Shown here piece by piece: positions 28,452 to 46,690 of a stretch of 46,993 nt of DNA (positions within the stretch are counted from its first letter, which is position 1; the number at the start of each line of letters is the position of its first letter). Below the pieces are notes generated by a model. It did no database searches. It was given only the letters and a program-made list of their open reading frames with translations, and was not told the DNA's origin. The translations under genes were made by a program, and so were the position numbers. The stretch is from Thermodesulfovibrionales bacterium (GTDB lineage: Bacteria; Nitrospirota; Thermodesulfovibrionia; Thermodesulfovibrionales; UBA9159), in the NCBI GenBank assembly GCA_035686305.1, contig DASRZP010000124.1, positions 1 to 46,993 of the forward strand, in the 5' to 3' direction.

Positions 28452-28635
28452 GCCCCCCGAGGCCCTTCTCCCTCACTAACCTGAACAGCCTTAACGGGAG
28501 ATTACAGCTATTCTATCGGTCTTTTTCGGGAAAACTTTAGTCGTCACCCGATTCGTGAGTCGTCCTGCCGGAACCGGGTTTTTATCAACGCTGGTCGATG
28601 TTTCATAGCTGTGTAGCCGGTGAATCCACATCAGA

Positions 28636-28664
28636 TTCTCATGGAGAGGAATTTTTGCTATAGT
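28636..28664 (+). promoter_or_regulatory. Promoter directly before the M1-ChaN fusion start
   Basis: TTCTCA (28636-28641, 4 of 6), 17-base spacer, then TGC plus TATAGT (28659-28664), an extended -10. The hexamer ends 6 bases before ATG 28671. The nearest Shine-Dalgarno-like GAGAGGA is 20 bases away, too far to serve, so the transcript is probably leaderless. Confidence 0.55.
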
Positions 28665-28670
28665 GTCATT

Positions 28671-31655
28671 ATGAAAGGCCTTTTTCAGAGATCACTACGG
28701 TCATTCCCGGCAGTCTCGGCACTCGTCTGTCCGCTCCTTCTCATGAGTGCTCTGCCCTCATTCTCCGCGGATCTCCCCGATGTTACGACGTCCATATCCT
28801 TTGATTCCGGGGGAGCGTTGATGAAGGGCTCTACGGTGATTAGCGTACATCGCGACGGCGAGACCGTGATTCATACAGGGTTGCTGCAGATACGCTCCCT
28901 GAGGCTGAACGGGAGCTTTCTTGAGCCTGTAATAAAAGACGGAACGCTGAAAGTGAAAACGACACGGGGGAGCGCCATAGAGATTGAGTTTCAGTGTGCC
29001 TCAGACAAGGACGGCCCCTGCGTAATAAATGAACGGGGCATGTTTCTCACGAATACCTGGTATCCATCTCCTGAAGGACTCTTCACCCATCGGCTCAGTG
29101 CCCTCGTCCCCAAAGATTTTACGGCCCTTTCGGAGGCTGAAACGATCGTGGTAGACGAGAGACCTGAGGGGAAGCTCTTCTCCTTTTTCTTTCCTCATCC
29201 TGTGAATGGCGTAAATTTTATCGCAGGCAGGTACGCCGTCAGGACAGACATCCATAACGGCATCGAATTGTATGCTTACTTTTTTCCCGAGGACATCGGT
29301 CTCGCTGATACCTACATCGAATACACAAAAAAGTATCTGTCGCTCTATGAGGGGATGATCGGCAAGTTCCCCTTCAAGAGGTTCTCCGTTGTCGAGAACT
29401 TCCTCCAGACAGGATATTCGATGCCGACATACACACTCCTCGGACAGGATGTTGTTCGACTTCCGTTTATCGTCAAGACTTCCCTCGGCCACGAAATACT
29501 CCATCAATGGTTCGGAAACCTTGTCTATATCGATTACGAAAAAGGCAACTGGGCTGAAGGGCTCACCACCTATCTCTCCGACCATCTCTACGAAGAACAG
29601 GAAGGCAGGGGATGGCAATACAGAAAACAGATCATGACCGATTACGATAGCTACGTCAGTCCGGAAGAGGAGATCACCCTCAGGGACTTCAGGACGAGAA
29701 CGGACTTTGCATCGCGGGCCGTCGGCTATGGAAAAGGAGCCATGGTCTTCCACATGCTCAGGGGACTCGTCGGAGAGGATCTCTTTTACCGGTCATTGAG
29801 GGAGCTTGTCGAGACGAAACAATTCCAGGAGGCCTCCTGGGGAGACATAGAGACTGCCTTTGAGAAGATCGCCGGCATGGAGCTCGGCTGGTTTTTCAAG
29901 CAATGGGTTGACGGAAAGGGATCACCGCTCTTCGAGGTCATGGATACGACAAGAGGCCCGAAGGGCCTTCACTCCCTCGTCTCCTTCGACATCATCCAGA
30001 AAGGGCAGAAGTACTCCCTTGACGTCCCCGTCTCAGTCAAGGCAGAGAGGGGAGAGACGGGACAGATCCTGAAGGTCAGGGACACAAGACAGAGTTTTGA
30101 AATCTCTGTTGACGGGAATCCCGAGAGACTGGCAATCGATGAGAATTATGACCTCTTCAGGAGCCTCTCGAAAGACGAGACTCCTCCAGTCATCGCAAAG
30201 ATCCTCAGTGAACAAGAAGGGCTCCTTGCGCTCCCCGTTGAGGGAAAGGATGATCTCTACAGAGGAGCTGTGGAATTCTTCAAGGGAAGAGGCTATGCGG
30301 CAAAAAGGTTGAAGGAGATCAAGGATGAGGACATAAAGACAGCTTCCGTCGTTGTCCTCGATCACGAGAATCCTCTTCTCAAACGGTTGTTCGGAAAAAC
30401 AGACGCTCCTTCCAACGGACTGTCGATCACTGTCCGAAAGAACCCTCTTAACACCTCCAAGGTGATCGCGATCGTCGACACCGATTCCCGTGATGAAGTC
30501 GAGGCCTCGCTGGGGAAGATCACTCACTTTGGGAAATACAGCCTGCTCCTCTTTAGAGAAGGGAGGAACAGTGAAAAGAAGATCGCAGAGAGTGACAGGG
30601 GCTGGAGTATTCCGCTGAAGGAGAACGTTACCGGCTTTCAGGTCGCAACGGCGTTGACCCTCAATGACATTATCGAGAAGGTCTCCGGAAAGAGGATCGT
30701 CTATGTCGGAGAAGAGCACGACAGGTATGAAGATCATATGGCAGAGCTTGAACTGATCAGGGGTCTTTTCAAAAAGAATCCAAGGATCGCCATCGGCATG
30801 GAGATGTTTCAGAGACCCTTCCAGAAGGCCCTCGATGACTATATCGAGGGGAGCATCGAAGAGCCTGAGTTCCTGAAGTCTTCAGAGTATTTCAAGCGGT
30901 GGGGGTTTGATTACAACCATTACAAGAACATCCTGAGGTTTGCGAGGGACGAGAAGATACCGGTGATAGCCCTGAATATCAGACAAGAGATCGTGAGCAA
31001 GGTGTCGAGGAGCGGGATAGATTCCCTCACTGAAGACGAGAAGAAGGAACTGCCCGATGCCATGGACATGACCGATGAGGCATACAGAGAGAGACTGAGG
31101 GCGATCTTTGAGAGGCATGAGGGCGCAGAAAGCAAGAACTTTGACAATTTTTACCAGTCCCAGGTGATCTGGGATGAGATCATGTCACAGTCCATCGATG
31201 ACTATCTAAAGAAGAACCCTGACCGTCAGATCGTGGTCATTGCGGGCGGAGGACATCTTGCCTTCGGCTCCGGCATTCCCAGGAGGACCTTCAGGAGAAA
31301 CGGCCTCGATTACGCATTAACTCTCAATGATACCTCGGGAGAGCCGGGGATCGCTGATTTTGTCCTCTTCCCGAAGAGCCTCGACATTGTTCATGCCCCC
31401 AAGCTCATGGCACTCCTGAAGGAGGAAGACACAAGGGTGAAGATCACGGCCTTCCCTGAAAAGAGCGTTTCTGAAAAGGCAGGGCTGAGGAGTGGTGATA
31501 CCATCCTTTCCCTCGACGGGAAGAAGATCACCAGCGTCGATGACATCCAGATATTCCTTTTCTACAAGAAGACAGGAGAGACGATTAAGGTCAAAGTTCT
31601 GAGGAGACGATTCATCTTCGGCGAGCAGGAGCGGGAGTTTGACGTCACGCTCTGA
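28671..31655 (+). CDS. M1-family metallopeptidase fused to a ChaN-like domain and a PDZ domain
   Basis: 994 residues, exported by a signal peptide (about 1-33). The first half is an M1 aminopeptidase-like domain with zinc motif HEILH at 274-278 and a following Glu in NWAEG 18 residues later, in the region where M1 enzymes place their third ligand. The middle (about 660-905) is a ChaN/haem-binding-uptake-like domain (YVGEEHDRYEDH, GMEMFQRPFQ, IALNIRQEIV, VIAGGGHLAFG). The end (about 920-990) is a PDZ domain (AGLRSGDTILSLDGKKI). All three in one periplasmic or surface protein is unusual and suggests digestion of, or binding to, hemoproteins. ATG 28671 is chosen over GTG 28620. Confidence 0.85.
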   Translation: MKGLFQRSLRSFPAVSALVCPLLLMSALPSFSADLPDVTTSISFDSGGALMKGSTVISVHRDGETVIHTGLLQIRSLRLNGSFLEPVIKDGTLKVKTTRGSAIEIEFQCASDKDGPCVINERGMFLTNTWYPSPEGLFTHRLSALVPKDFTALSEAETIVVDERPEGKLFSFFFPHPVNGVNFIAGRYAVRTDIHNGIELYAYFFPEDIGLADTYIEYTKKYLSLYEGMIGKFPFKRFSVVENFLQTGYSMPTYTLLGQDVVRLPFIVKTSLGHEILHQWFGNLVYIDYEKGNWAEGLTTYLSDHLYEEQEGRGWQYRKQIMTDYDSYVSPEEEITLRDFRTRTDFASRAVGYGKGAMVFHMLRGLVGEDLFYRSLRELVETKQFQEASWGDIETAFEKIAGMELGWFFKQWVDGKGSPLFEVMDTTRGPKGLHSLVSFDIIQKGQKYSLDVPVSVKAERGETGQILKVRDTRQSFEISVDGNPERLAIDENYDLFRSLSKDETPPVIAKILSEQEGLLALPVEGKDDLYRGAVEFFKGRGYAAKRLKEIKDEDIKTASVVVLDHENPLLKRLFGKTDAPSNGLSITVRKNPLNTSKVIAIVDTDSRDEVEASLGKITHFGKYSLLLFREGRNSEKKIAESDRGWSIPLKENVTGFQVATALTLNDIIEKVSGKRIVYVGEEHDRYEDHMAELELIRGLFKKNPRIAIGMEMFQRPFQKALDDYIEGSIEEPEFLKSSEYFKRWGFDYNHYKNILRFARDEKIPVIALNIRQEIVSKVSRSGIDSLTEDEKKELPDAMDMTDEAYRERLRAIFERHEGAESKNFDNFYQSQVIWDEIMSQSIDDYLKKNPDRQIVVIAGGGHLAFGSGIPRRTFRRNGLDYALTLNDTSGEPGIADFVLFPKSLDIVHAPKLMALLKEEDTRVKITAFPEKSVSEKAGLRSGDTILSLDGKKITSVDDIQIFLFYKKTGETIKVKVLRRRFIFGEQEREFDVTL

Positions 31656-31834
31656 CATCACATTTTCCCTGACCAAATAGAGGCCTAAGCATTATTTATT
31701 GCCTTCAGAGTAGTCAGCAGGGAGAGGAGCTTCATAACCCTGCTGCTTATGCGTGACAATCGCAAGGGCAAGAGCGCCCTGTTCTCTTCCATGTGCAGCG
31801 TGAATTTCGATTGGGTCAACCTTATCGTCAGAAC

Positions 31835-31862
31835 TTGACATTCGTTAGGAGTCAGATATACT
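31835..31862 (+). promoter_or_regulatory. Promoter of sixA
   Basis: A perfect TTGACA (31835-31840), 16-base spacer and TATACT (31857-31862, 5 of 6) lie 81 bases before ATG 31944. This is one of the best sigma-70-type promoters in the window. Confidence 0.65.
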
Positions 31863-31943
31863 TCTCTTGAAGGGAAGCAAGAGGGCTAATGATCCGGACC
31901 ACCCTTGTAATACTCATGTGATTCTTTGAACAAGAGGTGCTCA

Positions 31944-32414
31944 ATGCTTCTTTATCTCGTTCGCCACGGTGAAGCCGAGGAGGAGAAGGGGGATCCGGCA
32001 AGGCCTCTCTCTGAACAGGGAATCTCTGCCACGAAGGCAACTGCCTCCCACTTGTCCCGGATGAAGATAAGGGTAAATCAGATTCTCCACAGTAAGAAAT
32101 TGAGGGCGAAACAGACAGCCGAAATAATCGCAGAACATCTTACCGCGGCAAGTTACAAAGAATTTACAGAAACCGATGGATTATCTCCGCTCGATGATCC
32201 TGGAACGTGGGATGACCGTCTGAAGTACCTGACGGACGACCTCATGCTCGTCGGACATATGCCGCATCTCGGGAAGCTTGCATCCCTGCTCCTCTGCGGA
32301 GATGGAGAAAAGGATATCGTTGCGTTCAGGCCGTCTTCTGTGCTCTGTCTCGAAAGAGACGAAAGATCACACTGGCGCCTGCAATGGATGATAACGCCGG
32401 ATATGATTATGTAG
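31944..32414 (+). CDS. sixA: Phosphohistidine phosphatase SixA-like
   Basis: 156 residues, histidine phosphatase superfamily. The RHG motif (LVRHGEAEE, residues 7-9) and the second catalytic His in LVGHMPHLG match SixA, as do RPLSEQG, ILHSKKLRAKQTAEII and the end LERDERSHWRL. SixA removes phosphate from histidines, for instance of phosphotransfer proteins. AAGAGGTG 7 bases before ATG 31944 decides the start. It converges on the Kai-operon kinase genes, so a link to their phosphorelay is possible but unproven. Confidence 0.9.
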   Translation: MLLYLVRHGEAEEEKGDPARPLSEQGISATKATASHLSRMKIRVNQILHSKKLRAKQTAEIIAEHLTAASYKEFTETDGLSPLDDPGTWDDRLKYLTDDLMLVGHMPHLGKLASLLLCGDGEKDIVAFRPSSVLCLERDERSHWRLQWMITPDMIM

Positions 32415-32846
32415 TTGTTAGGGGTTAGTCTTACAGACAATGGCTGATTATCCCGCAACTCTTACGTGCGAATACTTCTCGCCTGGGAGATCTCGCCAAT
32501 TCTACCCACTTCCGAAAGAAACCTCGATAGGTTTGTGCACTCTCACTGATTTCCTGTCCTTCCTGAATCTGAGATTGTCAGTCTTCCGACATTGGTGTGA
32601 GATTCTTTTGGAATTTTATGTCGAAGAGATTCTTTGAAGGTGAGATGTACACCTCTAAGACGCACCAATCAGGTTTTCGTTGACGCAAGGCTTTCGGCGA
32701 AACTCTGCATATTTCTCGTTCCCGCCCCCCGAATAATTCATCCACTTATCTTCGCTGCCGTCCTCCGCCAAGAACGCCTATTTTTTGTAAGTTAAAAAAC
32801 TGTACCTGGCAAAATGAAGGAGGATTCGTCCAAAAGACATGGCTCT
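32415..32846. other. Spacer without a supported gene between sixA and the Kai operon end
   Basis: Both flanking genes end here. Short reading frames exist but lack ribosome binding sites and protein-like composition. A weak A/T-rich inverted repeat (TTTTTTGTAAGTTAAAAAA, about 32780-32798) could mark a transcript end. Nothing else is seen. Confidence 0.4.
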
Positions 32847-34454
32847 CTATGTCCTCTTCACAGGCAACGTAAAGTAGAACCGTGAACCCTTTCCCTTCTC
32901 CGATTCCACCCATATCCTTCCGCCATGCAGTTCGACGATTTTTTTGCATGTGGCCAGCCCTATTCCGCTGCCGGGCGTTCGTTTCATCCCCGGTATTCTC
33001 TTGAACATCTGAAATACCGCCCCAGCATATTCCGTTGGGATGCCGATCCCGTTATCACTTATACAAAAGGTATGTTCGTCTGCTTGCAATTCAACCGCTA
33101 TATGGATCTCGGGGCGCATTTCTGAGCGGTATTTTATCGCATTACCGATAAGGTTCTGCAAGAGAAGAGATATAAGCACTGGGTCAACGAAGAGTTCCGG
33201 AAGCGAACCATGGGTGACAGAAGCTGATGATTTTTCGATCATGGAGTTGAGATTCTTAACGGCAATTTCCAGAATTTTTGTTATATCCGAATTCACAAAA
33301 GACGGCTGCCTGCCTACTCTGGAATACGAAAGAAGGCTCTGAACCATTTTTTGCAGATTCTCAGCGTTGCCCATTGCATCAGAGAGAATCTCAATCGCCT
33401 CGTCGTTAACCCCTGTTTTCAATCGCTTAAGGCTGAGTTTGATAGCACTCGCAAGGGAGACAAGCGGCTCCTGAAGATCATGGGATGCAACTGAGGCGAA
33501 TTGTTCGAGGTCTCTATTGCTCAGTTCAAGTTCGGATGATTTCCTTCTAAGATTATCCGCAGCTATCCTGCATTCCTCATAGAGCTCCGCATTTTCAAGG
33601 GAAAGGGAGATGGAGGTAGATATCTTGCGTGCTGAATCGATCTCAATGTCGTCGAAGATGCGGTCCGAAAAATTGAAGAATGCGAGCGCCCCCGCGACGG
33701 AACGGTCCACATAAAGAGGGAAAAACATCGCTGCATGAACACCGAACCTCTTTGCAGCCTGTGGATTAAGACGGTCATCTGTCTGGGCGTCGACCGATAT
33801 GATCGGTATTCCGTCCTTTTCCAGGGAGCCAAAGGCCCTGAACTCTTTCCTCGGCAGTACGAAGTCCCTTAATTCATCGAGAAGTCCGTAGCTATATCTG
33901 ACGACAAAACCTCTTTCTTCATATCGGCCTATCAGGGCCGCCTCGCCAATAGATTTGGCTGCCTCGCTGACGCAGCGGTTCATAATTTCTTCGATGTCCC
34001 GCGTCGACATAATAAGATCTGTAATCCTATTGCGAGCCTCGCTGAGTTCCTCTATTTTCTGAAGACGCAATTGAACATGTTTACGGTTTATCGCGAAATG
34101 CAGAACTCGACGGAGCACGTCTGCCGTGAAATGGCCCTTTACAACATAATCCTGCGCCCCCTGCTCGATTGCACTTTCCCCGCTCATATCGTCGTCAATG
34201 CCGGTCAGAACCACAACGGCTGAATGTATGGTCTTACCCAGGATACTCCGAAGGGTGTCAAGACCCGCGCTATCGGGAAGGTTAAGATCGACAAGTACGG
34301 CATCGAAAGAATCCGCATCCAGAAGAGAAGAGGCAACTGAAAGACTATTGGCGTTACTCAGTTGAATCTGACCATCGGCCTTTTTCAACATTATCCTGAC
34401 GAGCTCGGCATCGGCGAGGCTATCCTCTATGAGAAGAACCTTCTTTGTTACCAT
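32847..34454 (-). CDS. Receiver-GAF-histidine kinase (last gene of the Kai operon)
   Basis: 535 residues, soluble. A receiver domain (about 1-125) has phospho-acceptor Asp56, Thr in VVLTG and Lys in DYVVKG. A GAF domain follows (about 150-295), then HisKA with phospho-acceptor His325 (ASHDLQEP), and HATPase with N434/N438, DNGIGI (468-472) and [19 protein letters not shown] kinase controlled by its own N-terminal receiver is a bacteriophytochrome/CikA-like layout without the phytochrome. AGGAGCGCG precedes the ATG. It ends the seven-gene run and could receive or read out KaiBC state; that is inference. Confidence 0.93.
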
Positions 34455-34492
34455 ATATCGCGCTCCTAATAGTATTATAAATTAATCGTGCG

Positions 34493-35560
34493 TCAGGGGT
34501 GAACAATCTTTCCGCCTGCGTGGCCCAGCACAATAACGATTGGTGTCAGAATCAGGAGCATCGTCAAATAGGCATATTTAAGCACCGTTTCCTCAACAAG
34601 AATAACCGGGTTTACTACCCGAAGCATTAATGCCGCCGTGACGACAATCGCCAATATTACGGTAAATATTATCTTTCTTCTAAAAATCGGAGTCATTTTC
34701 CCCTCGTAAGCAATCTTCCAGGAGAGAACCCCCGAAATTCCGGCAACCATCACAGCTAAGAACCCACCGACGAGCATATAAAATGAAGCCCTCTCAAAGG
34801 AGCTGTTTCCGCTGAAGAGATAAAGAAGCGAAAAAGCGGACACTGCAATGGAATAAGCGATAGCGAAATGGACTGTTATAGAATGTGGATGCAGCCGCTC
34901 GAGCACTGTTAGAAATCTTTGTGCAAAATATTCTTCTTTGATAAACTCTCCTACAGACGTCACTCTTGACAGCACCTCTTCACCATGAGGAGCGCTCTTG
35001 AATTCTTCGGTCAGATCTTTGCCAGGAGAGTGCAGCGCGCCGTGCAGCCCGTTCTTCCAAAGTTTGCTATCCGATACGTCAAAGACCTTTCCTTTGTATG
35101 CGATGTATGCGCGCCTGCCTTCCTGCCCGTCAAAACCCTTCAGTTGCTCTACGGTGATCTTTCTCCCTTCGCCTGCATGCCGTACCACCGCATACATTAT
35201 TGCTCGTTCAAGGTTGTTGCGACCAATTTGACTTTTTACAAAATAGTCCTGGGCTCCTTTCCTAATGGCTCTGGTAGCCATTGATTCATTATTCAGACTT
35301 GCCATTATAATTATAGGGATGGATGTAGCCTCGGACTGCATTTTGGAAAAGGTAGTAAAGCCGACGCTGTCGGGAAGCATTAGGTCCAGAAGGATAACAT
35401 CGATTTGCCCTTCTTTAATGCGTTTCAGCCCCTTTGCAAGAGTGTCTGCCAGCTCGACATCAAATATCCCCCGGTCCGTCTTTAGCAACATTTCAACGAG
35501 CATCGCATCGTCAGGATTGTCTTCTATGAGAAGGATTCTTATCTTTTCTTTTTCTTCCAT
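34493..35560 (-). CDS. Receiver domain fused to cytochrome-b5-like heme domain and DUF2231-like membrane domain
   Basis: 355 residues. Residues 1-125 are a receiver (acidic pair Glu13-Asp14, phospho-acceptor Asp59 in LLDLMLPD, Lys109); the usual Thr/Ser in strand 4 is Ala87. Residues about 135-206 match prokaryotic cytochrome-b5-like domains (ITVEQLKGFDGQEG, AYIAYKGKVFDVSDSKLW, HSPGKDLTEEF, APHGEEVL), with His177 and His192 as likely heme ligands. Residues about 218-350 look like DUF2231 with HPHSITVHF and four helices. b5-DUF2231 pairings are known; adding a receiver is unusual. ATG 35560 is the first sensible Met; a TTG at 35620 overlapping the upstream stop is possible. It may couple heme redox state to phosphorylation. 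Confidence 0.88.
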   Translation of the reverse strand: MEEKEKIRILLIEDNPDDAMLVEMLLKTDRGIFDVELADTLAKGLKRIKEGQIDVILLDLMLPDSVGFTTFSKMQSEATSIPIIIMASLNNESMATRAIRKGAQDYFVKSQIGRNNLERAIMYAVVRHAGEGRKITVEQLKGFDGQEGRRAYIAYKGKVFDVSDSKLWKNGLHGALHSPGKDLTEEFKSAPHGEEVLSRVTSVGEFIKEEYFAQRFLTVLERLHPHSITVHFAIAYSIAVSAFSLLYLFSGNSSFERASFYMLVGGFLAVMVAGISGVLSWKIAYEGKMTPIFRRKIIFTVILAIVVTAALMLRVVNPVILVEETVLKYAYLTMLLILTPIVIVLGHAGGKIVHP

Positions 35561-35616
35561 CACATTACCAGTTAGTGCCCTTTGGGCCGATGATGACAGC
35601 TTTGCATCATACCAGT

Positions 35617-36684
35617 TCAATAAAAGGGAATCGTAAAATAGAACTGCGACCCCTTTCCGGGCTCTGATTCCACCCAGATCCTTCCCCCGTGACCCTCAAC
35701 TATCTTCTTGCACATGGCAAGACCCAGGCCGGTGCCGGGATATTCCTCTTCGGTATGAAGGCGCTGGAACAATACAAATAGCCTGTCAAATTGCTTCCGG
35801 TCTATTCCTATGCCATTGTCTTTTACAGAGAAGATCCACTCACTTCCATGACGAACGGCAGATACGTGCACTTGCGGAGTGCCTTTAGAAAATTTGACTG
35901 CATTGCCAAGAAGGTTCTGGAGCAACAAAATCATTTGTGTTTGGTCCGCCATGACCCGGGGGAGGGGATCGTGAGTTATGATCGCCCTCTTTTCTTCAAT
36001 GACAACCTGAAGGTTCTCCATCGCTTGAACAAGGATCGACTCAAAATCGAGGTCGACCGTCTCAATACTTTTTCCGACTTTGCAGAACGACAAAATGGCG
36101 TTCACCATTTGTTCCATCCGCACCGCGCCGCGTATGATGCGGTCCAGCATCTTCCCGGCGTCTTCGTCCATAATGCCCCTATAATCATTCGCCAGGATCT
36201 CGGAGAAGCTTTTTATCGATCGAAGGGGAGCCCGTATGTCGTGAGAAACGATATTAGCAAACTGTTCGAGATCCTTGTTAGAACTGGCCAGTTCCCCTGT
36301 CAAACGGGTCAGATGTTCCTCCATCATCTTGCGTTCGGTGATATCCCGGAGGGCAGCCAGAGAAGCATCTTCACCTTCCCATTCGGTTTCCGTTATCCGC
36401 ATCTCTACTACTACCCGCTGTTTCCCTCTGAGCAAAATTTCTATTTCTGTCTTCTCATTGGCCAAGACTGGATATCCGAATTCCTCCCCCAGCAGATCGC
36501 CCGCCTTTCGTCCGAACATCTGCTCAGCTGTGGGATTCACAAAAAGAATGCGGCCTTTCTTGTCCATAATAAGGATACCATCGGCGCTTTTGTTGATGAC
36601 ATTACAAAAGAGCGCTTCAGAGGCCTTGAGCGCAGTCCTCAGCTCTTCCAGTTGGGCCCTTAATTTTTCCTCATCTTCTGCCAT
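35617..36684 (-). CDS. PAS-domain histidine kinase
   Basis: 355 residues, soluble. An N-terminal coiled segment, a PAS domain (about 20-120: VINKSADGILIMDKKGRILFVN, DITERK), HisKA with phospho-acceptor His148 (IVSHDIRAP), and HATPase with N-box (LLQNLLGNAVKF), DNGIGID and GTGLGLAMCKKIVEGHGG. The last two domains are very close to those of the receiver-GAF kinase two genes on, so the pair probably arose by duplication. AGAGGAGCC precedes the ATG. It starts 28 bases after the kaiC stop and is a natural candidate for a SasA-like output kinase, though it lacks a KaiB-like sensor domain. Confidence 0.93.
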   Translation of the reverse strand: MAEDEEKLRAQLEELRTALKASEALFCNVINKSADGILIMDKKGRILFVNPTAEQMFGRKAGDLLGEEFGYPVLANEKTEIEILLRGKQRVVVEMRITETEWEGEDASLAALRDITERKMMEEHLTRLTGELASSNKDLEQFANIVSHDIRAPLRSIKSFSEILANDYRGIMDEDAGKMLDRIIRGAVRMEQMVNAILSFCKVGKSIETVDLDFESILVQAMENLQVVIEEKRAIITHDPLPRVMADQTQMILLLQNLLGNAVKFSKGTPQVHVSAVRHGSEWIFSVKDNGIGIDRKQFDRLFVLFQRLHTEEEYPGTGLGLAMCKKIVEGHGGRIWVESEPGKGSQFYFTIPFY

Positions 36685-36711
36685 AAGGCTCCTCTTCCGC
36701 TTGCCGCCTGT

Positions 36712-38220
36712 TCACTCAGTCTTGAAGAGCTCATTCAAACGCTCGATTTCGTCGGCGCCGGCCTGGACCGGGTTTCCCGACAGTATGCCGGAAATTCCCC
36801 TGAAAGGTCTGCCGATATGCATGCCCTTGGCGTCAATCGTAAATTGACGGATCTCTTTCTCATGTTTCGATCCCCTCATCTTCAGCACTACCACTCCGCG
36901 CCTGATATCGCCGTATACTTCTACATAGCGAAGCAGAATTATGGTGTCGGTAATAGTCGATATGTGAGATTCAGTTATCGATGTACCCCCCAGAAGAGTG
37001 GGTGCGGTAACTGTGAAGAGACCTGCGATCTCCCTATGTTTAACAAAGGAAGTCAGCCCTACGATGAATTCCCTGTACCCCTTTACAGTTGCCACACGCT
37101 CAAGAGCCGATAGGCTGTCGACTGCAAGCCGATTAGGCCGAAACTCCTCTATAGCATCCTTGATCTCGATAAGGTGCTCCTCAAGACTGGCTATTTCAGG
37201 GTAAGAACAGATGATCTTAAGTTGACCAGCCTCCTCCATACCTACGAAGTCCTCGCTCCATCCGCGTGCGTTTCGGATAAGCTGCTCGCGGCTTTCCTCA
37301 AAGGCAAGCATGAGGCATTTCTCTCCCTGTGATGCACCGCCTGCCAGGAATTTGGTGGCTAATAAGGTCTTGCCGGTTCCGGTAGCCCCTGAGACGAGGA
37401 TTACAGAATCCCTGAAAAAACCGCCGCCGCACATACCGTCCAGCTCCTCATTTCCGGAGAAGACTCGCTGATCCGAAGATTTCTGGGTGAGTTCGATGGC
37501 CGAAAGCGGCAATACCACAACGCCCTCACCGGAAGAAACTGTGAATGGCCATTCACCTTTTTGGTGGTATGCCCCGCGGAACTTAAGGATCTCTATCGTC
37601 CGCCGCCGTTTCTCCTCATCAAGAGCGTTTCGCAGGATAATAACGTTATCCGCCACGAACTCTTCAACACCGATGCGAGAGATTTCTCCATACTCCTCGA
37701 TCCTCTCCACCGTAAGGAGTGCCGTCACCCCCATTTCCTTTAGGGCAGCGACAATCCGGAAGAGCTCGCGCCGGACAACGCCCTGATTGCTGAAACGTGT
37801 AAAAATGGCGCCTACAGAGTCCATGGACAATCTCGTCGCCCCTGTTTTTTTTACAGCATACTCGACACGGGCCAGCAGCGCTCCGAAGTCGTATTCGCCA
37901 ACAACCGTCGCCTCCTGGTTCGGTTCGGGCGAGGCGTCGACAAAGGCCCACTTGCCTTCCTTTTCCCATGATTTGATGTCCCAGCCGAATCCTTTCACAT
38001 TGCTCCGGATATCCTCTTTAGGTTCCTCGAAGGTGACGAAAACGCCATTTTCATCAATACGGATCCCAGCCGCCAAAAACTGGGCCGCGAATACCGTCTT
38101 TGCGCTGCCGGATGACCCAGCAAGCAGGGTTGTCCTCCCTTTTGGAAGGCCCCCGGCGGCTATCAGGTCAAAACCCGGGATATGTGTTGCAAGCTTCTCG
38201 ATGTCCTGATGTCCTTCCAT
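36712..38220 (-). CDS. kaiC: KaiC-type double-domain ATPase
   Basis: 502 residues, close to cyanobacterial KaiC. Two RecA-like domains: CI with Walker A at 35-42 (GSSGSAKT) and catalytic Glu65-Glu66; CII with Walker A at 278-285 (GATGTGKT) and Glu308-Glu309. In CII the phosphorylation region reads TESHISTITDTI, so residues Ser421 and Thr422 (equivalent to Ser431/Thr432 of Synechococcus KaiC) and Thr416 are all kept. KaiC hexamers auto-phosphorylate and dephosphorylate, and the cycle is shifted by KaiB. AGGAGGATAAATAG precedes the ATG. It lies 29 bases after a kaiB gene. Intact phosphosites suggest a working phosphorylation switch rather than a generic RecA-like ATPase. Confidence 0.95.
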   Translation of the reverse strand: MEGHQDIEKLATHIPGFDLIAAGGLPKGRTTLLAGSSGSAKTVFAAQFLAAGIRIDENGVFVTFEEPKEDIRSNVKGFGWDIKSWEKEGKWAFVDASPEPNQEATVVGEYDFGALLARVEYAVKKTGATRLSMDSVGAIFTRFSNQGVVRRELFRIVAALKEMGVTALLTVERIEEYGEISRIGVEEFVADNVIILRNALDEEKRRRTIEILKFRGAYHQKGEWPFTVSSGEGVVVLPLSAIELTQKSSDQRVFSGNEELDGMCGGGFFRDSVILVSGATGTGKTLLATKFLAGGASQGEKCLMLAFEESREQLIRNARGWSEDFVGMEEAGQLKIICSYPEIASLEEHLIEIKDAIEEFRPNRLAVDSLSALERVATVKGYREFIVGLTSFVKHREIAGLFTVTAPTLLGGTSITESHISTITDTIILLRYVEVYGDIRRGVVVLKMRGSKHEKEIRQFTIDAKGMHIGRPFRGISGILSGNPVQAGADEIERLNELFKTE

Positions 38221-38249
38221 CTATTTATCCTCCTGTTGTAGGCATATGT

Positions 38250-38528
38250 TTATAGGTCCTTCAGGTCCATCCCGATAAGTACCTTTTCCTTTTCTGAAAG
38301 ATCACCGATGAGTCTCCTCATAGGAGGAGGCAATTTTTTGATCAGGGTCGGCGTTGCCAGAATCTTGTCATCTTCAGCCAGTTGCGGGTTCTCAAGGACA
38401 TCGATGACACTCAACTCGTATTCGCCACGCAGTTCCATTTCACAAATAGAATGCAGGTTGACGATGCACTGCTCCGACCTTTGAGTCCTGCCAGCAATAT
38501 AGAGCTTAAGATGATATCTATGTGGCAT
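38250..38528 (-). CDS. kaiB: KaiB protein, copy adjacent to kaiC
   Basis: 92 residues. The KaiB signature is very clear: [19 protein letters not shown] at the start, [22 protein letters not shown] in the middle and [24 protein letters not shown] at the end. The prolines in ATPTL and LPPP, which support the fold switch of KaiB, are present. AAAGGAG precedes the ATG. It overlaps the PAS/KaiA-like gene by 11 bases. Relative to cyanobacterial KaiB it lacks the acidic C-terminal tail. It should bind KaiC CI. Confidence 0.96.
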
Positions 38529-39393
38529 TTTCTTCTCCTTTAGGCAGCCCGATCTTATTTTGAGTCTTCACCTCCCCGCCTCCGAATGCCCGATTTCGGT
38601 AATAAGTCGTTACACGACCGAGAAGTTCAATTAGGAGGAAGTGTCCCTCTTCAATATAGCCTCTCATCCGAGCCGGGGAAGCGTTCCTGCCTTTATTCTT
38701 CAATACCGCACTATGAAGATCTACCACATCGCGCGCGGTCGCCTTAAGAAAACCCAGTCGGTTTCCAAGATCATCGATCGCATTTGAAAGATTCCCTTCG
38801 ATTTTGAAAATCCGTCGCTCAATAGATTCCTCCATAATCCTGCCATACCCTTCGACCATGTCCTCAAAAACGGCAGGGGCGGAGTCTCTAAGAGGCATCA
38901 CTCCCATCATGCGCGCCGTCACCGAGGCTGCCGGAGGCTGCGAAATCTCTTCGAAAGCACGGAGCGTCGTCTCAAGTTCAGCGATCCTTCGTTCCATAAG
39001 CTGGGCCCTCGCTTCCTCCAACAGTTTGCGTTCGGTAATGTCGCTTATAGATGCCATAACCATCAGGTCAGCCCCTTCTCCTGCGTGGCTTAGAGAAATT
39101 TCGACTGGAAATTCGCTGCCGTCCTTTTTCCTCGCTGAAAGATCGAGCCCCAGCCCTATAGGACGGTTACGGGGATTGGTCAGATACCCGTTTCTGCGAG
39201 CTACATGGATCTCGCGCACCCGGTCCGGCACCAGGACTTCCACTACCTTACCGATCAACTCTTCTGACCGATAGCCGAAGAGATCCAATGTCCTATTATT
39301 TGCAAAGACAATCCGTCCCTGTCTGTTCACGATAATGATGCACTCTGCCGCAGACTGCAGAAGTATGCGCAATATGGAATCAGATTTTTCCAT
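38518..39393 (-). CDS. PAS-domain protein with a C-terminal helical domain resembling KaiA/RsbU
   Basis: 291 residues. A PAS domain (about 8-122: [29 protein letters not shown]) and a coiled linker (about 122-150) precede an all-helical C-terminal domain (about 172-270, including [20 protein letters not shown] and [20 protein letters not shown]). By eye this resembles the KaiA C-terminal/RsbU N-terminal helical fold (helix, then a DVVxLHxxxL helix, then a long final helix). No kinase or phosphodiesterase motif follows. Its position between two kaiB genes makes a KaiA-like role attractive, with PAS in place of the KaiA pseudo-receiver. PAS is sure; the KaiA-like call is a hypothesis. Confidence 0.8.
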
Positions 39394-39420
39394 GCGTCTG
39401 TTACACCGGCGTAGATCTGA

Positions 39421-39723
39421 TCATGCCGGCTCCTCTCGCTTTAATGGAGGCTGAAGTGGCAACCCGAGGTAAGAGAAAACTTTTTCAGTTTCGGAGAAAT
39501 CGCCGACTATACGTCTGGCCGGGGGAGGAGAAATAAGGATAAGTGTAGGAGTCGCAAGAATTTTATCTTCTTCGGCCGCCTGGGGTTGATCCACCACGTC
39601 GCAGACACTGAACTCATAATCAGCAGCCGGAAGGGCGTCAAGTATGCGGCTTAGATTGGCAACTGCACGCTCAGTTCGCGGAGTCCTCCCCGAAATGTAA
39701 AGTTTAAGTATAATTCTTGCCAT
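39421..39723 (-). CDS. kaiB: KaiB protein, distal copy
   Basis: 100 residues, the first gene of the Kai operon. [41 protein letters not shown] and SPPPARRIVGDFSETEKVF match KaiB. It differs from the other copy by a VDQPQAAE segment for LENPQLAE and by a Pro-rich, charged C-terminal extension. Two diverged copies in one operon suggest different partners or a competition between them. GGAGATGAATA precedes the ATG. Confidence 0.95.
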   Translation of the reverse strand: MARIILKLYISGRTPRTERAVANLSRILDALPAADYEFSVCDVVDQPQAAEEDKILATPTLILISPPPARRIVGDFSETEKVFSYLGLPLQPPLKREEPA

Positions 39724-39842
39724 TATTCATCTCCATGATATGAATCCCATCAACAATATGAACAATCCCGCAGCGAGTAATTACCGCTTCCGACTTGGCA
39801 TCATGTCTCCTTTATGATCTATTTTAATATATCAAGACATTG
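39724..39842 (-). promoter_or_regulatory. Leader of the Kai operon with candidate promoter and short upstream frame
   Basis: On the minus strand TAAAAT (39826-39821) lies 18 bases from TTGGAC (39850-39845), which falls in the likely end of the IS4 element. Further down, AAGGAG precedes ATGATGCCAAG, a seven-codon frame ending in TAA at 39781, about 55 bases before kaiB. The box matches are moderate and the short frame may be chance. Confidence 0.3.
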
Positions 39843-39919
39843 CTGTCCAAGATAACTGTGGCCTATATAAGACCTCTTTGAAACATACGACTTTTTAGAC
39901 GGATTTTGACGATCTGAAA

Positions 39920-39969
39920 ATGAGGTTCTCTCATCTGTGCTGTCCAAATCACGCGAAAAAGAACCTCAT
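39920..39969 (-). terminator. Inverted repeat at the end of the transposase gene
   Basis: ATGAGGTTCT (39920-39929) and AGAACCTCAT (39960-39969) form a perfect 10-bp stem that spans the stop codon. A short T-run follows on the minus strand. A weak terminator candidate; it may also protect the mRNA end. Confidence 0.4.
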
Positions 39970-41112
39970 CTGGTCGGGATCGTAAGTCACTGGTAATGTT
40001 TCAAAGGGACTGTCCAGCCAAGCCCACAAATTCCGATGGGTGAAGAGATTCATCCGCACCGGAGAGACCAAGTTCGATAACGACCAGTTGTATTGTGATT
40101 TCAATTGAAGATATTTCAAGATGAGCATTGCTATCAGTGCTGTCCAAATCTGTATCTTCACCGCATTGGCGCTTGTTCCCACAAACGTCTTGATCTTGAG
40201 GTTTTGTTTCAGTGCCTTGAAAAACAACTCCACCTGCCACCGGTCTTTATATACTGCGCTGACCGTAGAGGCACCAAGCTGCAGATGATTCGTCAGAAAC
40301 GCAAACACCCTGTCAGCTTCAGGATCATACACATCCACTCGACGCAAAAGATACGGACACTTTTCCTCTGCCTTTACTCCTGTCAGACGGATAATCTCAT
40401 CTTTAAGAATATGACGGTTTTGAGGAACTTCTCTGGTCTCGACGACGTCATACACGGCGTTGTCTTTCATTCTGGTTACAAAGTATATTCCCTGGGCCGT
40501 CCATTTGCCGAAGAGGACGTAATCGTTATATCCCCGGTCATCCACCACTATGGTTCCGGGATCGAATTGAATCGTATGAGCAACCCTTACATCGGAAATC
40601 TTCCCTTCGGTAATTACGGCAAAAGAGGGTAAGTAACCATCGTGATCGAGCACAAGATGAAGCTTCACCGCTCCTTTTCTCCTGCGAAACTTCGCCCAAT
40701 CATAGAGACTCAAGCACAAGTCAATGGGGGAGGAATCAAGACTCATCAGCTTGTTTTTGAACCGAAACTTCTTCTTCCCCGTCACGGCTCCTTTGCACCG
40801 ACCGAGGAGGGCCAAGAACAGATCCTGGTACATTTCCCACGGACGGTGCGCATTGGCATACGCAAGCGTTGTCCGTTTCGGAGCTTCGATGCCCAAATGC
40901 TTCAGCTTTCCTTCACAGCTCATCAGGCCGTTAACGATCTCCCTCAGCGATTGAGCCTTCCCCAACTGACAAAACAGCATACTCACAAACTGCCCCCAAC
41001 TGCTGAATCCCTTCGCATGCCGCTCCGCCTGATGCTTCTTTGCCACCAACTGAAACTCCTTCCGCGGAAACCATTGCAACAATTGGCTGAATATGCTACA
41101 AAATACACTCAT
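39949..41112 (-). CDS. IS4-family transposase
   Basis: 387 residues, apparently intact. The N-terminal DUF4372-like region (QFVSMLFCQLGKAQSLREI) precedes a DDE domain with Asp126 (LMSLDSSPID), Asp192 (VVDDRGYND) and Glu295. The IS4 YREK motif is complete: Tyr288, Arg291, Glu295 and Lys302 in YKDRWQVELFFKALK. AAAGGAGG precedes the ATG but lies inside a long hairpin, which should keep translation low on read-through transcripts. Confidence 0.95.
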   Translation of the reverse strand: MSVFCSIFSQLLQWFPRKEFQLVAKKHQAERHAKGFSSWGQFVSMLFCQLGKAQSLREIVNGLMSCEGKLKHLGIEAPKRTTLAYANAHRPWEMYQDLFLALLGRCKGAVTGKKKFRFKNKLMSLDSSPIDLCLSLYDWAKFRRRKGAVKLHLVLDHDGYLPSFAVITEGKISDVRVAHTIQFDPGTIVVDDRGYNDYVLFGKWTAQGIYFVTRMKDNAVYDVVETREVPQNRHILKDEIIRLTGVKAEEKCPYLLRRVDVYDPEADRVFAFLTNHLQLGASTVSAVYKDRWQVELFFKALKQNLKIKTFVGTSANAVKIQIWTALIAMLILKYLQLKSQYNWSLSNLVSPVRMNLFTHRNLWAWLDSPFETLPVTYDPDQMRFFFA

Positions 41113-41173
41113 GTTGAGCCCTCCTTTGGTTTTTTGTTCTTCCCAGAACTGTTATACCAAATCAGGGCTCAAC
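41113..41173 (-). promoter_or_regulatory. Hairpin covering the transposase ribosome binding site
   Basis: On the minus strand the 5' leader folds as GTTGAGCCCT paired with AGGGCTCAAC (10 bp, perfect), then an internal TTTGGT/ACCAAA pairing and an inner GTTCT/AGAAC. The 3' arm contains the GGAGG site and ends directly at the ATG. Transcripts that enter from outside would carry the whole hairpin and hide the site. Confidence 0.6.
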
Positions 41174-41210
41174 TCATAAATCTATTTTGGCCAAGAGTGA
41201 TACACGGTAG

Positions 41211-41750
41211 GTGTTTTCCCCAATCATGGGTTGATATTGGCACATTTTGTTTCCATAAAAAAGAAAAAGGTTGGTTTAAATCGAGCTGTATTGTTTAATC
41301 AGTTTGGGTATTTTGTGTTATTACGGACAAAAGGCGGTTTGGGTAAAATATGGGAAAATCCACAAAGGTCTTGAAAGAGGCTGGCTCCACAGTTCCACAT
41401 GTACTCCGCAAACGTGCATGCCTCCGAAAAGTGAAGGGTATTATCGGAAATCTTGCTCCCGTCAAAAGATTGCCAGAGTCGACTTGTCGGTGTTAACGAC
41501 AGCGGATAGCAGAAGAAGAAACGTTGCTTTCCCAAAGAAACTTGACAGGACTTTGCAAAGACTGCAATCTGTCAGCGATTGAACGACACGCATGTGTCAA
41601 TCGAAAATCATCCGTCTGTCTTCGCTGTCGACACCATCCCCTGTGAGACCGTCTTTAATATACTGAATTATTACCCTTCGATCTCTCTTACTGGAACGTC
41701 TTCAAATTATATTCTGCGATCGCATTTGCGACGGAACAGCGCATGTACCA
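41211..41750. other. Spacer between the IS element and serA without a supported gene
   Basis: Reading frames on both strands (about 41299-41582) have no ribosome binding site and no recognisable family. The stretch could hold decayed coding sequence from an older insertion, but I cannot show it. Confidence 0.35.
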
Positions 41751-43352
41751 TTATTTGGCCGTCAAATTGACATACTTTGCGCTATAGATGCCGTCTATCT
41801 TCTGTAGTTGCTTCAAAACACTATCGTTGACGGGTTCATCAACATTCAGAATCATTACGGATTCACCGCCTATCTGCGCACGATCTTTTCTTCCTACCTG
41901 CATCATAGATATATTAATATTTTCCTTGCTCAGTACCGCTGCAACCTGCGCAACCATACCCGGTTTGTCTTTATGCGGCAAAACGAGCATATGCTCTGCA
42001 GGCTCGATACTCGTGTGATATCCGTTCAATCTCAGAATCCTCGGAATGTCCTTCTCAAGCATGGTCCCTGCAGTTTTATTCGCTTCCTTATCAGTAGTCA
42101 GAACCACTTTCAAGAGGCTTACATAGCTTTCTGAATCAGTCGACGTCGATTTCTTAATGCCTATCCCCCTTCTCTCCGCTGACCTGAGGGCGTTCACATA
42201 ATTCACTCCCTCACTGCTGCAACAGAGTATCCCCTTCGTGACCGCCACTGCCAGGGGAGCGAGGTCGAATTGAGCGAGGTCGCCGCACGCAACAACTTCC
42301 ACTTCCCGTGCTGTGCCGTTCGTAATTTGCCTCACGAGAGCTCCGAGGTTTTCAGCGAGGGCCATATAGTGCTTCACGGGCTCGAGTGTCTCAGGTCTGA
42401 ACGCCGGGATATTCACGGCGCTTCTCGCGGGCACCCCCAGAAAGAAATCGCGAATTTGCTCGGCGACATCAACAGCGACGTTGATCTGTGCCTCTTCTGT
42501 GCTTGCCCCCAGGTGCGGGGTAAGAACAACTTTACTGCCAAGGCTCAAAAGCGGGGAATCCTCGACAGGTTCTTTGTCAAAAACGTCTATAGCAGCCATT
42601 TCAACCCAGCCCTTTTGTATCGCTTCAGCAAGATCGGCCTCGTTTATTATTCCGCCTCTGGCACAATTGATTATCTTCACGCCTTTCTTCATTTTCAGAA
42701 TCGAGTCTCTATTAATCAGGTTGAGGGTGTCCTTGTTTTTCGGGATATGGAGGGTAATGAAATCCGCCAACTTCCACACCTCATCAAGTGACGCAGCATA
42801 GTTTACGCCCTGTTCTTCTATCCGATCTCTGCCGACAAAGGGATCATACACGAACACTTTCATACCCATCGCCTTCACGATCGATGCCACTCTGCTTCCC
42901 ACCTTGCCAAACCCGATAACGCCTACATTCTTGTTAAATACCTCCTTGCCTCTCAGCCTCGACCTTTCCCATTTGCCTTCCTTCATGGAACTATCGGCAG
43001 AGGGGATATGTCTCACCATGGAGAGCATTAAGGCTATGGTGTGTTCCGAGGCTGCTACTGTATTGCCTTCAGGAGAGTTGGTCACAACGATCCCTTTTTC
43101 TGTGGCAGCTTCGATATCGACATTATCCACACCGACACCCGCCCTGCCGATGATCTTCAGTCTGTCTGTAACAGAAAGTACATCCTTCGTGATTTTCGAA
43201 GAGCTTCTGATCATGAGAGCATCGTAATCTTTGATGACTGCCTTCAGCTCCTCAGCGGACAGAAGAGGTCTATAGTCAACCTCACTCACGTCCTGTAAAA
43301 TTGTCACCGCCATCTCTTCAATCTGATCGGTAACTAACACTTTATACCCCAT
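41751..43352 (-). CDS. serA: D-3-phosphoglycerate dehydrogenase SerA
   Basis: 533 residues, the long type. It oxidises 3-phosphoglycerate with NAD, the first step of serine synthesis. The NAD-binding domain has GFGKVGSRVASIVKAMG, and catalytic-region blocks such as GRAGVGVDNVD, INCARGGIINEADL and LTPHLGASTEEAQ. An ASB domain (about 320-450) and a C-terminal ACT domain (about 460-530) follow, the site of serine feedback control in some relatives. GAGGGGG before ATG 43352 decides the start over the TTG 9 bases earlier. Confidence 0.97.
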   Translation of the reverse strand: MGYKVLVTDQIEEMAVTILQDVSEVDYRPLLSAEELKAVIKDYDALMIRSSSKITKDVLSVTDRLKIIGRAGVGVDNVDIEAATEKGIVVTNSPEGNTVAASEHTIALMLSMVRHIPSADSSMKEGKWERSRLRGKEVFNKNVGVIGFGKVGSRVASIVKAMGMKVFVYDPFVGRDRIEEQGVNYAASLDEVWKLADFITLHIPKNKDTLNLINRDSILKMKKGVKIINCARGGIINEADLAEAIQKGWVEMAAIDVFDKEPVEDSPLLSLGSKVVLTPHLGASTEEAQINVAVDVAEQIRDFFLGVPARSAVNIPAFRPETLEPVKHYMALAENLGALVRQITNGTAREVEVVACGDLAQFDLAPLAVAVTKGILCCSSEGVNYVNALRSAERRGIGIKKSTSTDSESYVSLLKVVLTTDKEANKTAGTMLEKDIPRILRLNGYHTSIEPAEHMLVLPHKDKPGMVAQVAAVLSKENINISMMQVGRKDRAQIGGESVMILNVDEPVNDSVLKQLQKIDGIYSAKYVNLTAK

Positions 43353-43726
43353 ACTCGTCAAGCCCCCTCTATAATTGTTTCACCGTTAAACCTTTCACGA
43401 GGTTTCTCAAGATTGCTCTCTTCATTATCGCAGAAAATTGAGATCGTGCAAGATGAGGAGCATCAAGAGGTCGAGCGAAATCTCTGGTGGAATCCGGACA
43501 TTGCGGCAGAGTCCGCCACCGAAACACCCTTTCGGATGACTATGAAGCCACCGGGGATTGACAGCTGTTCTTTTTCTGCGATACTGAAATCAGGACCAAC
43601 GGCATAAGGCGAAAGGAGAAAGACGAAGACCGAAAAATGCACAGGGGCTGCAAGGCTCGAATGTTGTCCTCTCTGCATCAGGTTTCGCAGTCTGTTGACC
43701 AAAGGTTCGAAAGGAGGAGCGGTCAT
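43353..43726. other. Divergent spacer between serA and the GlsB-like gene
   Basis: It holds a short hairpin in the serA leader (AAACCT at 43388-43393, AGGTTT at 43400-43405) and a second (CCGAAA at 43519-43524, TTTCGG at 43530-43535). Reading frames here lack ribosome binding sites. No riboswitch class is recognised. Confidence 0.4.
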
Positions 43727-43972
43727 ATGGAATTTCTCTGGTTTATCCTGATTGGTTTGGCTGCCGGATGGTTAGCGGGACAATTGATGAGGGGCGGCGG
43801 GTTTGGCGTCATCGGAGACATCATTGTCGGGGTAATCGGTGCGCTCCTCGGTGGTTTTCTTTTTCGTACTCTGGGCATTTTCCCCGGAGGCGGGCTGCTC
43901 GGCAGTTTGATCGTTGCGACCATCGGCGCCGTGATTTTGTTGTTTCTGTTGCGTCTGATCAAGAAGGCTTAG
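43727..43972 (+). CDS. GlsB/YeaQ/YmgE-family small membrane protein
   Basis: 81 residues with three membrane helices and the glycine-rich blocks of this family (WFILIGLAAGWLAGQLMRG, GDIIVGVIGALLGGFLF, LIVATIGAVILLFLLRLIKK). Relatives are stress-induced membrane proteins of unknown mechanism, sometimes labelled transglycosylase-associated. AAGGAGGAG before ATG 43727 sets the start. Monocistronic. Confidence 0.93.
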   Translation: MEFLWFILIGLAAGWLAGQLMRGGGFGVIGDIIVGVIGALLGGFLFRTLGIFPGGGLLGSLIVATIGAVILLFLLRLIKKA

Positions 43973-43999
43973 GCCGTCTTTTTCGAGTCCTTGCTATGA

Positions 44000-44035
44000 T
44001 TCGGGCAAGAGGTTCGCAGCAGGACCTTGCCCGAA
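44000..44035 (+). other. Hairpin downstream of the GlsB-like gene
   Basis: TTCGGGCAAG (44000-44009) and CTTGCCCGAA (44026-44035), a perfect 10-bp stem with a 16-base loop, 27 bases after the GlsB-like stop. It lacks a T-run. Confidence 0.45.
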
Positions 44036-44336
44036 CCGTTCTCGTTAATGTGCCCTGAATCGATAATAGAAGCCGTACTCGTGCGGGTAGCCAGGTGGTC
44101 ATTGATAGGGATCGCGGGAAAGGTGGTGCGGCACGGGAGGAGGCTGTGACTTTTGCTTGCCAGAACGTGGGAGAAGTTGAATGTATATCATCAGACGCGT
44201 AAACGATGTATGGTCTTTGCGTAACCGCCCACTGCGAGACTTGAATTTGGCTTCTTGAGAGGAGAGGTTTGTCCTGGAAAGGGGTTTTCGAGAGGCAAAT
44301 CACACCTTGCGTGATAAAGGGATCGACGAAGGGGTC

Positions 44337-44381
44337 CGAATGCGCTTTTTAAAGATTGCGCCGGTTTAAAAAGCGCATTCG
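44337..44381. repeat. Perfect 17-bp inverted repeat upstream of parA
   Basis: CGAATGCGCTTTTTAAA (44337-44353) and its exact complement (44365-44381) flank an 11-base centre. It lies about 190 bases before parA in a 597-base stretch with no gene. It may be an operator or centromere-like site, a bidirectional terminator, or a remnant of a small mobile repeat. Confidence 0.7.
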
Positions 44382-44465
44382 TAGGCCTCAGATGGAGGAT
44401 ATGCCAAATTCTATCGCCGGATTTGGGCAGTGTCCTCCACGTAGCATTTGTCTCCGTGAATCGGC

Positions 44466-44471
44466 TATAAT
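44466..44471 (+). promoter_or_regulatory. -10 box for parA
   Basis: A perfect TATAAT 98 bases before the parA ATG. No good -35 box is seen. It lies between the inverted repeat and the gene. Confidence 0.4.
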
Positions 44472-44569
44472 GCCTTCACTCATTTGTGAGTCTGGGGACC
44501 TCATGGCACCATTGCGATGTGGCTTCGAGAATATCCGTCAATCCATAAGAACTCATTCAGGGAGGGGAC

Positions 44570-45316
44570 ATGCAACAGGTTGTGGCAATCGTAAATCATA
44601 AGGGCGGCGTTGGGAAGACTACCTCGACGGTGAACATCGCTGCTTGCTGGGGTGAGATCGGGAAAAGGGTCCTTGTCATTGATCTCGACCCCCAAGGAAG
44701 CGCAACGGTATCCTTCGGAATCACAGACGACGGGACCGCACTCCTTAATGCCTTGCAGCAGACAGCAGCCTTGCCCGTTGTGTCAACCAAGGCGCAGGGC
44801 GTAGACCTCGTACCGGCAGGGCATAGGCTTGCGGAAGCGAGACAGAGATTTGTTGGAACTGCCGCCAGCGAACTCTTGATGAGGTGCCTCAGATACACCG
44901 AGGGAGAATGGGACTTTGTCATCGCCGACTGCCCCCCCAGTTTAGGCATCTTCACAATGAACGCCTTAAAGGCGAGCGCTCATGTCCTCATCCCTGTGGA
45001 GGCAAATCATCTTTCCTACCTCGGGTTGACCCAGATGATGCAAGCCGTAAATTCGTTCCGCTCGGATAATCCTGTCCTCACCGTCCGTGCGATAATACCG
45101 TGCAGAGCCCAAGCACGCCGGCGCATACACGAAGAGTTCCTTGCGATGATGGAAAAAGTTCTTCCGGGTGGAATTAGCCCCTCCGTCCGCGAGAACGTCT
45201 CCCTCGCCGAGGCGCCGGGCAGAGGGCTGCCCGTTGTGCTCTATTTTCCGAACTCCAATGGGGCCTATGATTACCGGCGGGTCGCTCAATGGCTTTTGGA
45301 GCGGATTCCAAACTAA
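44570..45316 (+). CDS. ParA/MinD-family ATPase, orphan (no ParB nearby)
   Basis: 248 residues. Deviant Walker A (NHKGGVGKTTSTVNIA), Walker A' (VIDLDPQGSATVSFG) and Walker B (DFVIADCPPSLGIFTMNAL) match ParA-type ATPases used to position DNA or large complexes. No parB or centromere-binding gene follows; the next gene is convergent. It may therefore place protein clusters or act with a distant partner. GGGAGGGGAC precedes the ATG. The perfect inverted repeat 190 bases upstream may be its operator. Confidence 0.9.
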   Translation: MQQVVAIVNHKGGVGKTTSTVNIAACWGEIGKRVLVIDLDPQGSATVSFGITDDGTALLNALQQTAALPVVSTKAQGVDLVPAGHRLAEARQRFVGTAASELLMRCLRYTEGEWDFVIADCPPSLGIFTMNALKASAHVLIPVEANHLSYLGLTQMMQAVNSFRSDNPVLTVRAIIPCRAQARRRIHEEFLAMMEKVLPGGISPSVRENVSLAEAPGRGLPVVLYFPNSNGAYDYRRVAQWLLERIPN

Positions 45317-45358
45317 GTGCCCTGCATCGGGAGGCTTGCTTCTGACTCAGGTTGGCAT

Positions 45359-46168: not shown

Positions 46169-46186
46169 CCCTGCTATCTCCCTTGC

Positions 46187-46510
46187 TCACGCGTAGAGGT
46201 CAACAAGCCTCGATTTGAACCGCAGTTCACTCTCCTGCACCCGCTGGTATGCATTTATCGCCTCCTCCGCTGCTGAGGAGGTTCTTACTCTCTCTATCAG
46301 GATCTGCGTCGTTCTTCGCTCAGAGGCTGCGTCCCAAAATGCGACTCCTCTTCGGAAGGGACTCTCATTTTCCGTGGCTTGAGGGAAAGTGTCTGCCTTC
46401 TTATAACCGACAATCCCGTCCTGGTCGATCCTCGAAAGCTGGAGGGCATCATGGTTTGCTCTGACGTAAGGCGTTACGGGGTAATTGATTGTTATGAGTT
46501 CTGTATGCAT
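46187..46510 (-). CDS. Small hypothetical protein, 107 residues
   Basis: Not recognised. The last 25 residues (INAYQRV...LVDLYA) resemble those of the protein at 8220-8540, hinting at a small-protein family with a conserved helical C-terminus. The rest is soluble and variable. The ribosome binding site is weak (AGAGAATCC). It may be co-transcribed with the ferredoxin-type gene that follows. Confidence 0.55.
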   Translation of the reverse strand: MHTELITINYPVTPYVRANHDALQLSRIDQDGIVGYKKADTFPQATENESPFRRGVAFWDAASERRTTQILIERVRTSSAAEEAINAYQRVQESELRFKSRLVDLYA

Positions 46511-46567
46511 CGCGCCGGATTCTCTTTATTATACTCGTTATAACTGGTTCCCTTCCAGCTCACGTAA

Positions 46568-46687: not shown

Positions 46688-46690
46688 TTA

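Follow-up and report, generated by a model that had tools for sequence, protein, structure and literature searches.

A receiver fused to cytochrome-b5-like and DUF2231 domains beside kai genes: a recurrent response regulator architecture with an unusual output

Introduction

For the most part, response regulators target DNA, enzymes or protein partners, and their usual order places the receiver at the N-terminus and the output domain at the C-terminus. One gene in the 46,993-nucleotide stretch of Thermodesulfovibrionales DNA analysed here (hereafter the window) raises the question of what a receiver might control when a cytochrome-b5-like domain and a membrane domain of the DUF2231 family follow it. 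Were a response regulator to act on a membrane b5 module, phosphorylation would switch electron transfer directly. A preliminary description of the locus considered that a kinase might gate heme-based electron transfer through such a protein, or that heme state might instead control a phosphorelay; it did not mention the kai genes that lie beside the gene.

Results

The gene occupies the minus strand (Table 1). The plus-strand reading of the same interval is riddled with stops, and an in-frame TTG at 35620 offers an alternative start that would add 20 residues. Judged against curated Pfam cut-offs, the receiver (PF00072, Response_reg; E 4e-20, 72.4 bits against 30.2), the b5 domain (PF00173, Cyt-b5; E 2e-6, 27.9 bits against 23.7) and the membrane domain (PF09990, DUF2231; E 1e-10, 42.3 bits against 26.4) all exceed the threshold, and they do so as well in four relatives (L049, L051, L172 and L180), which rules out chance domain calls and upholds the three-domain fusion proposed earlier. 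The 355-residue translation also confirms the earlier numbering of D59, A87, H177, H192 and the HPHSITVHF motif, and the four helices noted after this motif appear in the AlphaFold2 (AF2) model as hydrophobic helices at residues 227-250, 253-284, 291-316 and 326-353.

Table 1. Features of the REC-b5-DUF2231 gene, its kai gene row and related loci (window coordinates unless a locus is named)
Feature	Coordinates	Strand	Basis
REC-b5-DUF2231 protein, 355 aa plus stop	34493..35560	-	ORF translation, Pfam
Receiver domain, residues 9-119; E13/D14, D59, K109 present, A87 replaces switch Thr	35204..35536	-	Pfam, alignment, structure comparison
Cytochrome-b5-like domain, residues 136-197; invariant W168, H173, H177, H192	34970..35155	-	Pfam, alignment
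HPHSITVHF motif, residues 224-232	34865..34891	-	alignment
DUF2231 domain, residues 226-353, four membrane helices	34502..34885	-	Pfam, AF2 model
REC-GAF-HisKA-HATPase kinase, 38 nt downstream of REC-b5-DUF2231 gene	32847..34454	-	Pfam
PAS-HisKA-HATPase histidine kinase, 56 nt upstream of REC-b5-DUF2231 gene	35617..36684	-	Pfam
KaiC, HISTITDT phosphosite region present	36712..38220	-	above NCBIfam KaiC equivalog cut-offs
KaiB	38250..38528	-	above one of two NCBIfam KaiB cut-offs
PAS + KaiA-C-terminal-like domain (suggestive KaiA3-like relative), between two kaiB genes	38518..39393	-	Pfam, profile
Second KaiB	39421..39723	-	Pfam only; NCBIfam cut-offs not reached
Small ferritin-like-by-eye genes	L179 9835-10152, L181 1306-1557, L182 10257-10517, L029 1235-1480, L030 2033-2422		

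Residues D14, D59, K109, W168, H173, H177 and H192 do not vary across the 14 receiver-b5 proteins that we aligned, of which 11 are full length. T87, G88 and D91 are nearly invariant, and the window copy departs from all three, with A87, S88 and N91. The usual Thr/Ser switch residue is absent from this copy, as the preliminary description had it, and the alignment adds that the alanine is private to the window; switching may therefore be weakened or constitutive here. Of the heme ligands, H177 and H192 had been put forward as candidates. Both are invariant, but the list was incomplete, as H173 is a third invariant histidine of the b5 part. The spacing from D182 to H192 equals that from D53 to H63 of cytochrome b5, so by register H192 presumably matches the second b5 ligand, and the first may be either H173 or H177. 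Among PDB sequences, 6VZ6 and 6NZX match the b5 part best (E about 1e-17) and keep all three histidines; weak matches extend to the MAPR-type relatives 1J03, 1T0G and 4X8Y. 6NZX is counted among the heme-containing b-type cytochromes (PMC7096707). Taken with the invariant histidines, homology to this pair makes heme binding by the b5 domain likely. Further along the protein, an alignment of 21 DUF2231 domains shows no variation at H224, H226 and H231, which precede or fall at the first helix.

The full-length AF2 model (mean pLDDT 82.9, pTM 0.45) shows a receiver and a small b5-like domain ahead of four long helices, with good confidence within each domain and low confidence for their relative placement. 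Its receiver part reaches VIA Z scores of up to 18 against solved receiver structures. Modelled alone, DUF2231 is predicted well (pLDDT 90.1, pTM 0.81), and comparison with solved folds, for which CydA, CcmC and b561 were considered as known membrane heme folds, gave no confident match among the families listed: the best Foldseek E was 0.45 (CcmC), CydA scored a probability of 0.99 but an E of 0.55, and VIA Z, at most 13.3 and 12.8 for bd-II (rmsd 5.6 over 143), stayed at a level that helical bundles commonly reach. A literature search on DUF2231, in which a single paper mentioned the family, found no function and no ligand, its gene neighbours in Nitrospirota formed no redox pattern, and plasmid records held no clue to its function.

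A scan of 84,980 species genomes placed the best relative in the methane-oxidising archaeon Candidatus Methanoperedens (L049, 55% identical over b5-DUF2231) and found another in a Chloroflexi metagenome-assembled genome (L051, 48% over the same part); both have a receiver in front. The full protein occurs in eight of the 150 genomes of the Methanoperedens order (L049 and L172-L178) and in two of the 294 genomes of L051's Chloroflexi class (L051 and L180). With ten further full-length proteins in the same domain order, a one-genome assembly artefact is ruled out, and the genome searches do away with the notion of an isolated case. The architecture had been called unfamiliar, and this holds insofar as we found no description of it in a literature search whose cover of subscription journals was thin, nor any experiment on a member; it is nevertheless a small recurrent family and not a one-off. 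The architecture, that of a response regulator whose output is unusual, recurs in three phyla.

Outside this set, three Methanoperedens copies (L071, L183 and L184) have receiver and b5 and end before DUF2231, and relatives in Aminicenantes, Acidobacteriota and two Chloroflexi have no receiver. Among the 230 genomes of the window's own class, the full architecture is confined to the window copy; b5-DUF2231 is nearly full length in four others, in frames of 225-251 aa that are too short to hold a receiver. A search of viral contigs returned no relative. In a maximum-likelihood tree, all receiver fusions and four receiver-less members form one clade (support 100/98), a grouping under which the fusion may have arisen once. 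The tree leaves the order within this clade open, so we do not place the window copy as sister to a named Methanoperedens copy; distances alone favour L049. With one occurrence in the 230 genomes of the class, vertical inheritance in Nitrospirota is unsupported. So solitary a copy is most simply explained by horizontal transfer, and the window copy was probably acquired.

A histidine kinase gene lies directly upstream in the window, in L049 (with a 4-nt overlap), in L180 and at the receiver-b5 copy L071. In L051, L172-L175 and L178 the order is kinase, small Rcp1-like receiver, then REC-b5-DUF2231, and adjoining genes overlap or are almost contiguous; the small receiver is retained in L176 and L177, where no kinase is adjacent. 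By this order the protein looks like the end point of a two-component pathway. Receiver genes so often adjoin kinases that the linkage alone is weak evidence; it is the recurrence of the gene order that supports kinase coupling. In the window, the PAS-HisKA-HATPase kinase is the likeliest candidate phosphodonor.

The gene is the sixth in a row of seven co-directional genes (kaiB, PAS-KaiA_C-like, kaiB, kaiC, PAS kinase, REC-b5-DUF2231 and REC-GAF kinase), with intergenic gaps of -11 to 56 nt. KaiC scores 609.8 against 546.25 for TIGR02655 and 698.8 against 408 for NF006799, above both equivalog cut-offs, and carries the HISTITDT segment of the CII phosphosites; such a KaiC together with KaiB is consistent with a Kai clock operon. 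The KaiB encoded next to it (KaiB2) passes NF006798 (119.5 against 110) and falls below TIGR02654 (114.6 against 145.3). In related kai loci, genes immediately 5' of kaiB code for proteins that share the domain that follows PAS in the protein between the window's two kaiB genes, and several of these proteins join it to a receiver (KaiA3-like). A profile of this domain and its relatives ranks KaiA structures first, weakly (E 0.0046), and Pfam KaiA matches one of ten members of the set.

We sought REC-b5-DUF2231 in ten kai loci of nine related genomes, whose kaiC clusters carry receiver and kinase genes, and it was absent from all ten. In L177, of the Methanoperedens order, a kaiB lies about 540 nt from the REC-b5-DUF2231 gene, and most other copies have no kai gene nearby. 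The kai linkage is thus real in the window, but the family as a whole does not conserve it. A DDE transposase gene (DUF4372 + DDE_Tnp_1; 39949-41112, minus strand) lies immediately upstream of the row, and an RNA-element search of 30000-46993 found only a tRNA at 46612. A relative with a 6-Mb genome (G165) encodes four KaiC homologs (on L209 and L214) that are 47-65% identical to the window KaiC; three of the four share a contig, in surroundings rich in receiver and kinase genes.

Discussion

How, then, might the receiver and the membrane heme module work together? Our preferred reading, which we put forward tentatively and at somewhat under an even chance, is of a response regulator that is anchored in the membrane, has a redox output and is controlled by the upstream histidine kinase. 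The kinase would phosphorylate D59 of the receiver; this would move the b5 heme domain with respect to the four-helix DUF2231 domain, or change its activity, and so raise or lower electron transfer on the cytoplasmic side of the membrane. We infer that the upstream kinase is the phosphodonor, that b5 binds heme, that DUF2231 participates in electron transfer and that control runs from the receiver to the membrane module. Of the two possibilities raised at the outset, domain order and gene order favour the kinase gating electron transfer over heme state controlling the relay. Most copies of the protein belong to the Methanoperedens order, and Methanoperedens lives by membrane redox chemistry.

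The reverse flow of information is the alternative to which we give most weight, while still thinking it unlikely. Here phosphate uptake or loss at the receiver would be set by the b5 heme and DUF2231 through their redox or ligand state (e.g., that of the quinone pool), so that the protein would drain or reset a kinase relay as a sensor or feedback element and, in the window, could feed redox state to the kinase of the Kai row. A receiver that has lost its switch threonine and kept D59 suits a phosphate sink better than a switch, and the copies that keep receiver and b5 without DUF2231 suggest that these two domains are the minimal unit. There is also a precedent, an Fe-S-binding receiver reported to give feedback on its kinase (PMC7078487). 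However, the relatives retain the full switch, with T87, G88 and D91 nearly invariant, the domains are arranged as in an output protein, and the protein itself has no kinase domain.

Two further accounts strike us as improbable, to a similar degree. One would make the b5-like domain a MAPR-type carrier of heme or of a hydrophobic ligand, with DUF2231 a mere anchor and the receiver setting where or when the carrier acts. The weak matches to 1J03, 1T0G and 4X8Y, and a DUF2231 for which our literature search turned up no function, fit such a carrier; against it stand the three invariant histidines and 6NZX and 6VZ6, small b5 cytochromes that match the domain far better. The other would make the gene an acquired and decaying passenger of the kai row, with no working role in this genome. 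Its solitary occurrence among the 230 genomes of the class, its absence from the ten related kai loci, the private A87/S88/N91 and the transposase gene just upstream of the row are what decay after acquisition might leave; yet the 355-aa frame is intact, all the histidines, D59 and K109 are kept, and the gene sits among co-directional neighbours at gaps of -11 to 56 nt.

Parts of this putative redox-output response regulator have counterparts in known systems. A receiver before an output that does not bind DNA is also found in PleD (REC-GGDEF), where the output is a nucleotide cyclase in place of a heme/membrane module. The b5 and DUF2231 pair is shared with receiver-less proteins (L029/L053, L030/L058 and L054-L070) that carry invariant equivalents of H173, H177 and H192 and an HPHP..VHF motif, but these are 31-45% identical to the window protein and have no receiver. 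The prokaryotic small cytochrome b5 proteins 6NZX and 6VZ6 are of the same b5 subtype, although the deposited chain is the b5 domain only, with neither receiver nor membrane part. A CopD-b5 protein of the window's own genome (L002) likewise joins this b5 subtype, at 45% identity, to a membrane part, but its CopD domain precedes b5 and it has no receiver. On the Kai side, KaiA3 is a receiver-KaiA_C protein of KaiA3-B3-C3 systems (PMC11372060), and the window resembles these in having receiver proteins and a KaiA-like domain within a kaiBC cluster, as do related loci that hold REC-KaiA_C-like genes. In contrast to KaiA3, the REC-b5-DUF2231 protein has no KaiA domain, and the window's KaiA-like domain is fused to PAS instead.

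Placement in the kai row suggests that a signalling kinase, possibly a clock, may act on membrane electron flow. Kai output routes outside cyanobacteria have been described as different from SasA-RpaA and as unknown, and a kinase in a Rhodobacter kaiBC operon has been proposed to relay redox signals to KaiBC (PMC5520375); the window's row is one concrete candidate for such an output route. The stronger version, in which the row's kinase would connect a KaiABC-like oscillator or hourglass to the membrane heme protein, is a long shot. Were it true, the output (or the entrainment input) would be electron transfer itself rather than transcription.

Several observations touch on the wider setting of these domains. 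The CopD-like domain and its same-subtype b5 domain lie at 895-1845 of L002 (contig C45), and across both the order and the phylum b5 domains of this subtype recur, carried in frames of about 300-390 aa. In more than one phylum, b5-DUF2231 genes that lack a receiver are in several cases followed by a small gene whose helical product looks ferritin-like by eye (Table 1). Within the window, 28620-31655 on the plus strand encodes a 1011-aa protein that combines M1 peptidase, ChaN/Tiki-type haem-binding and PDZ domains.
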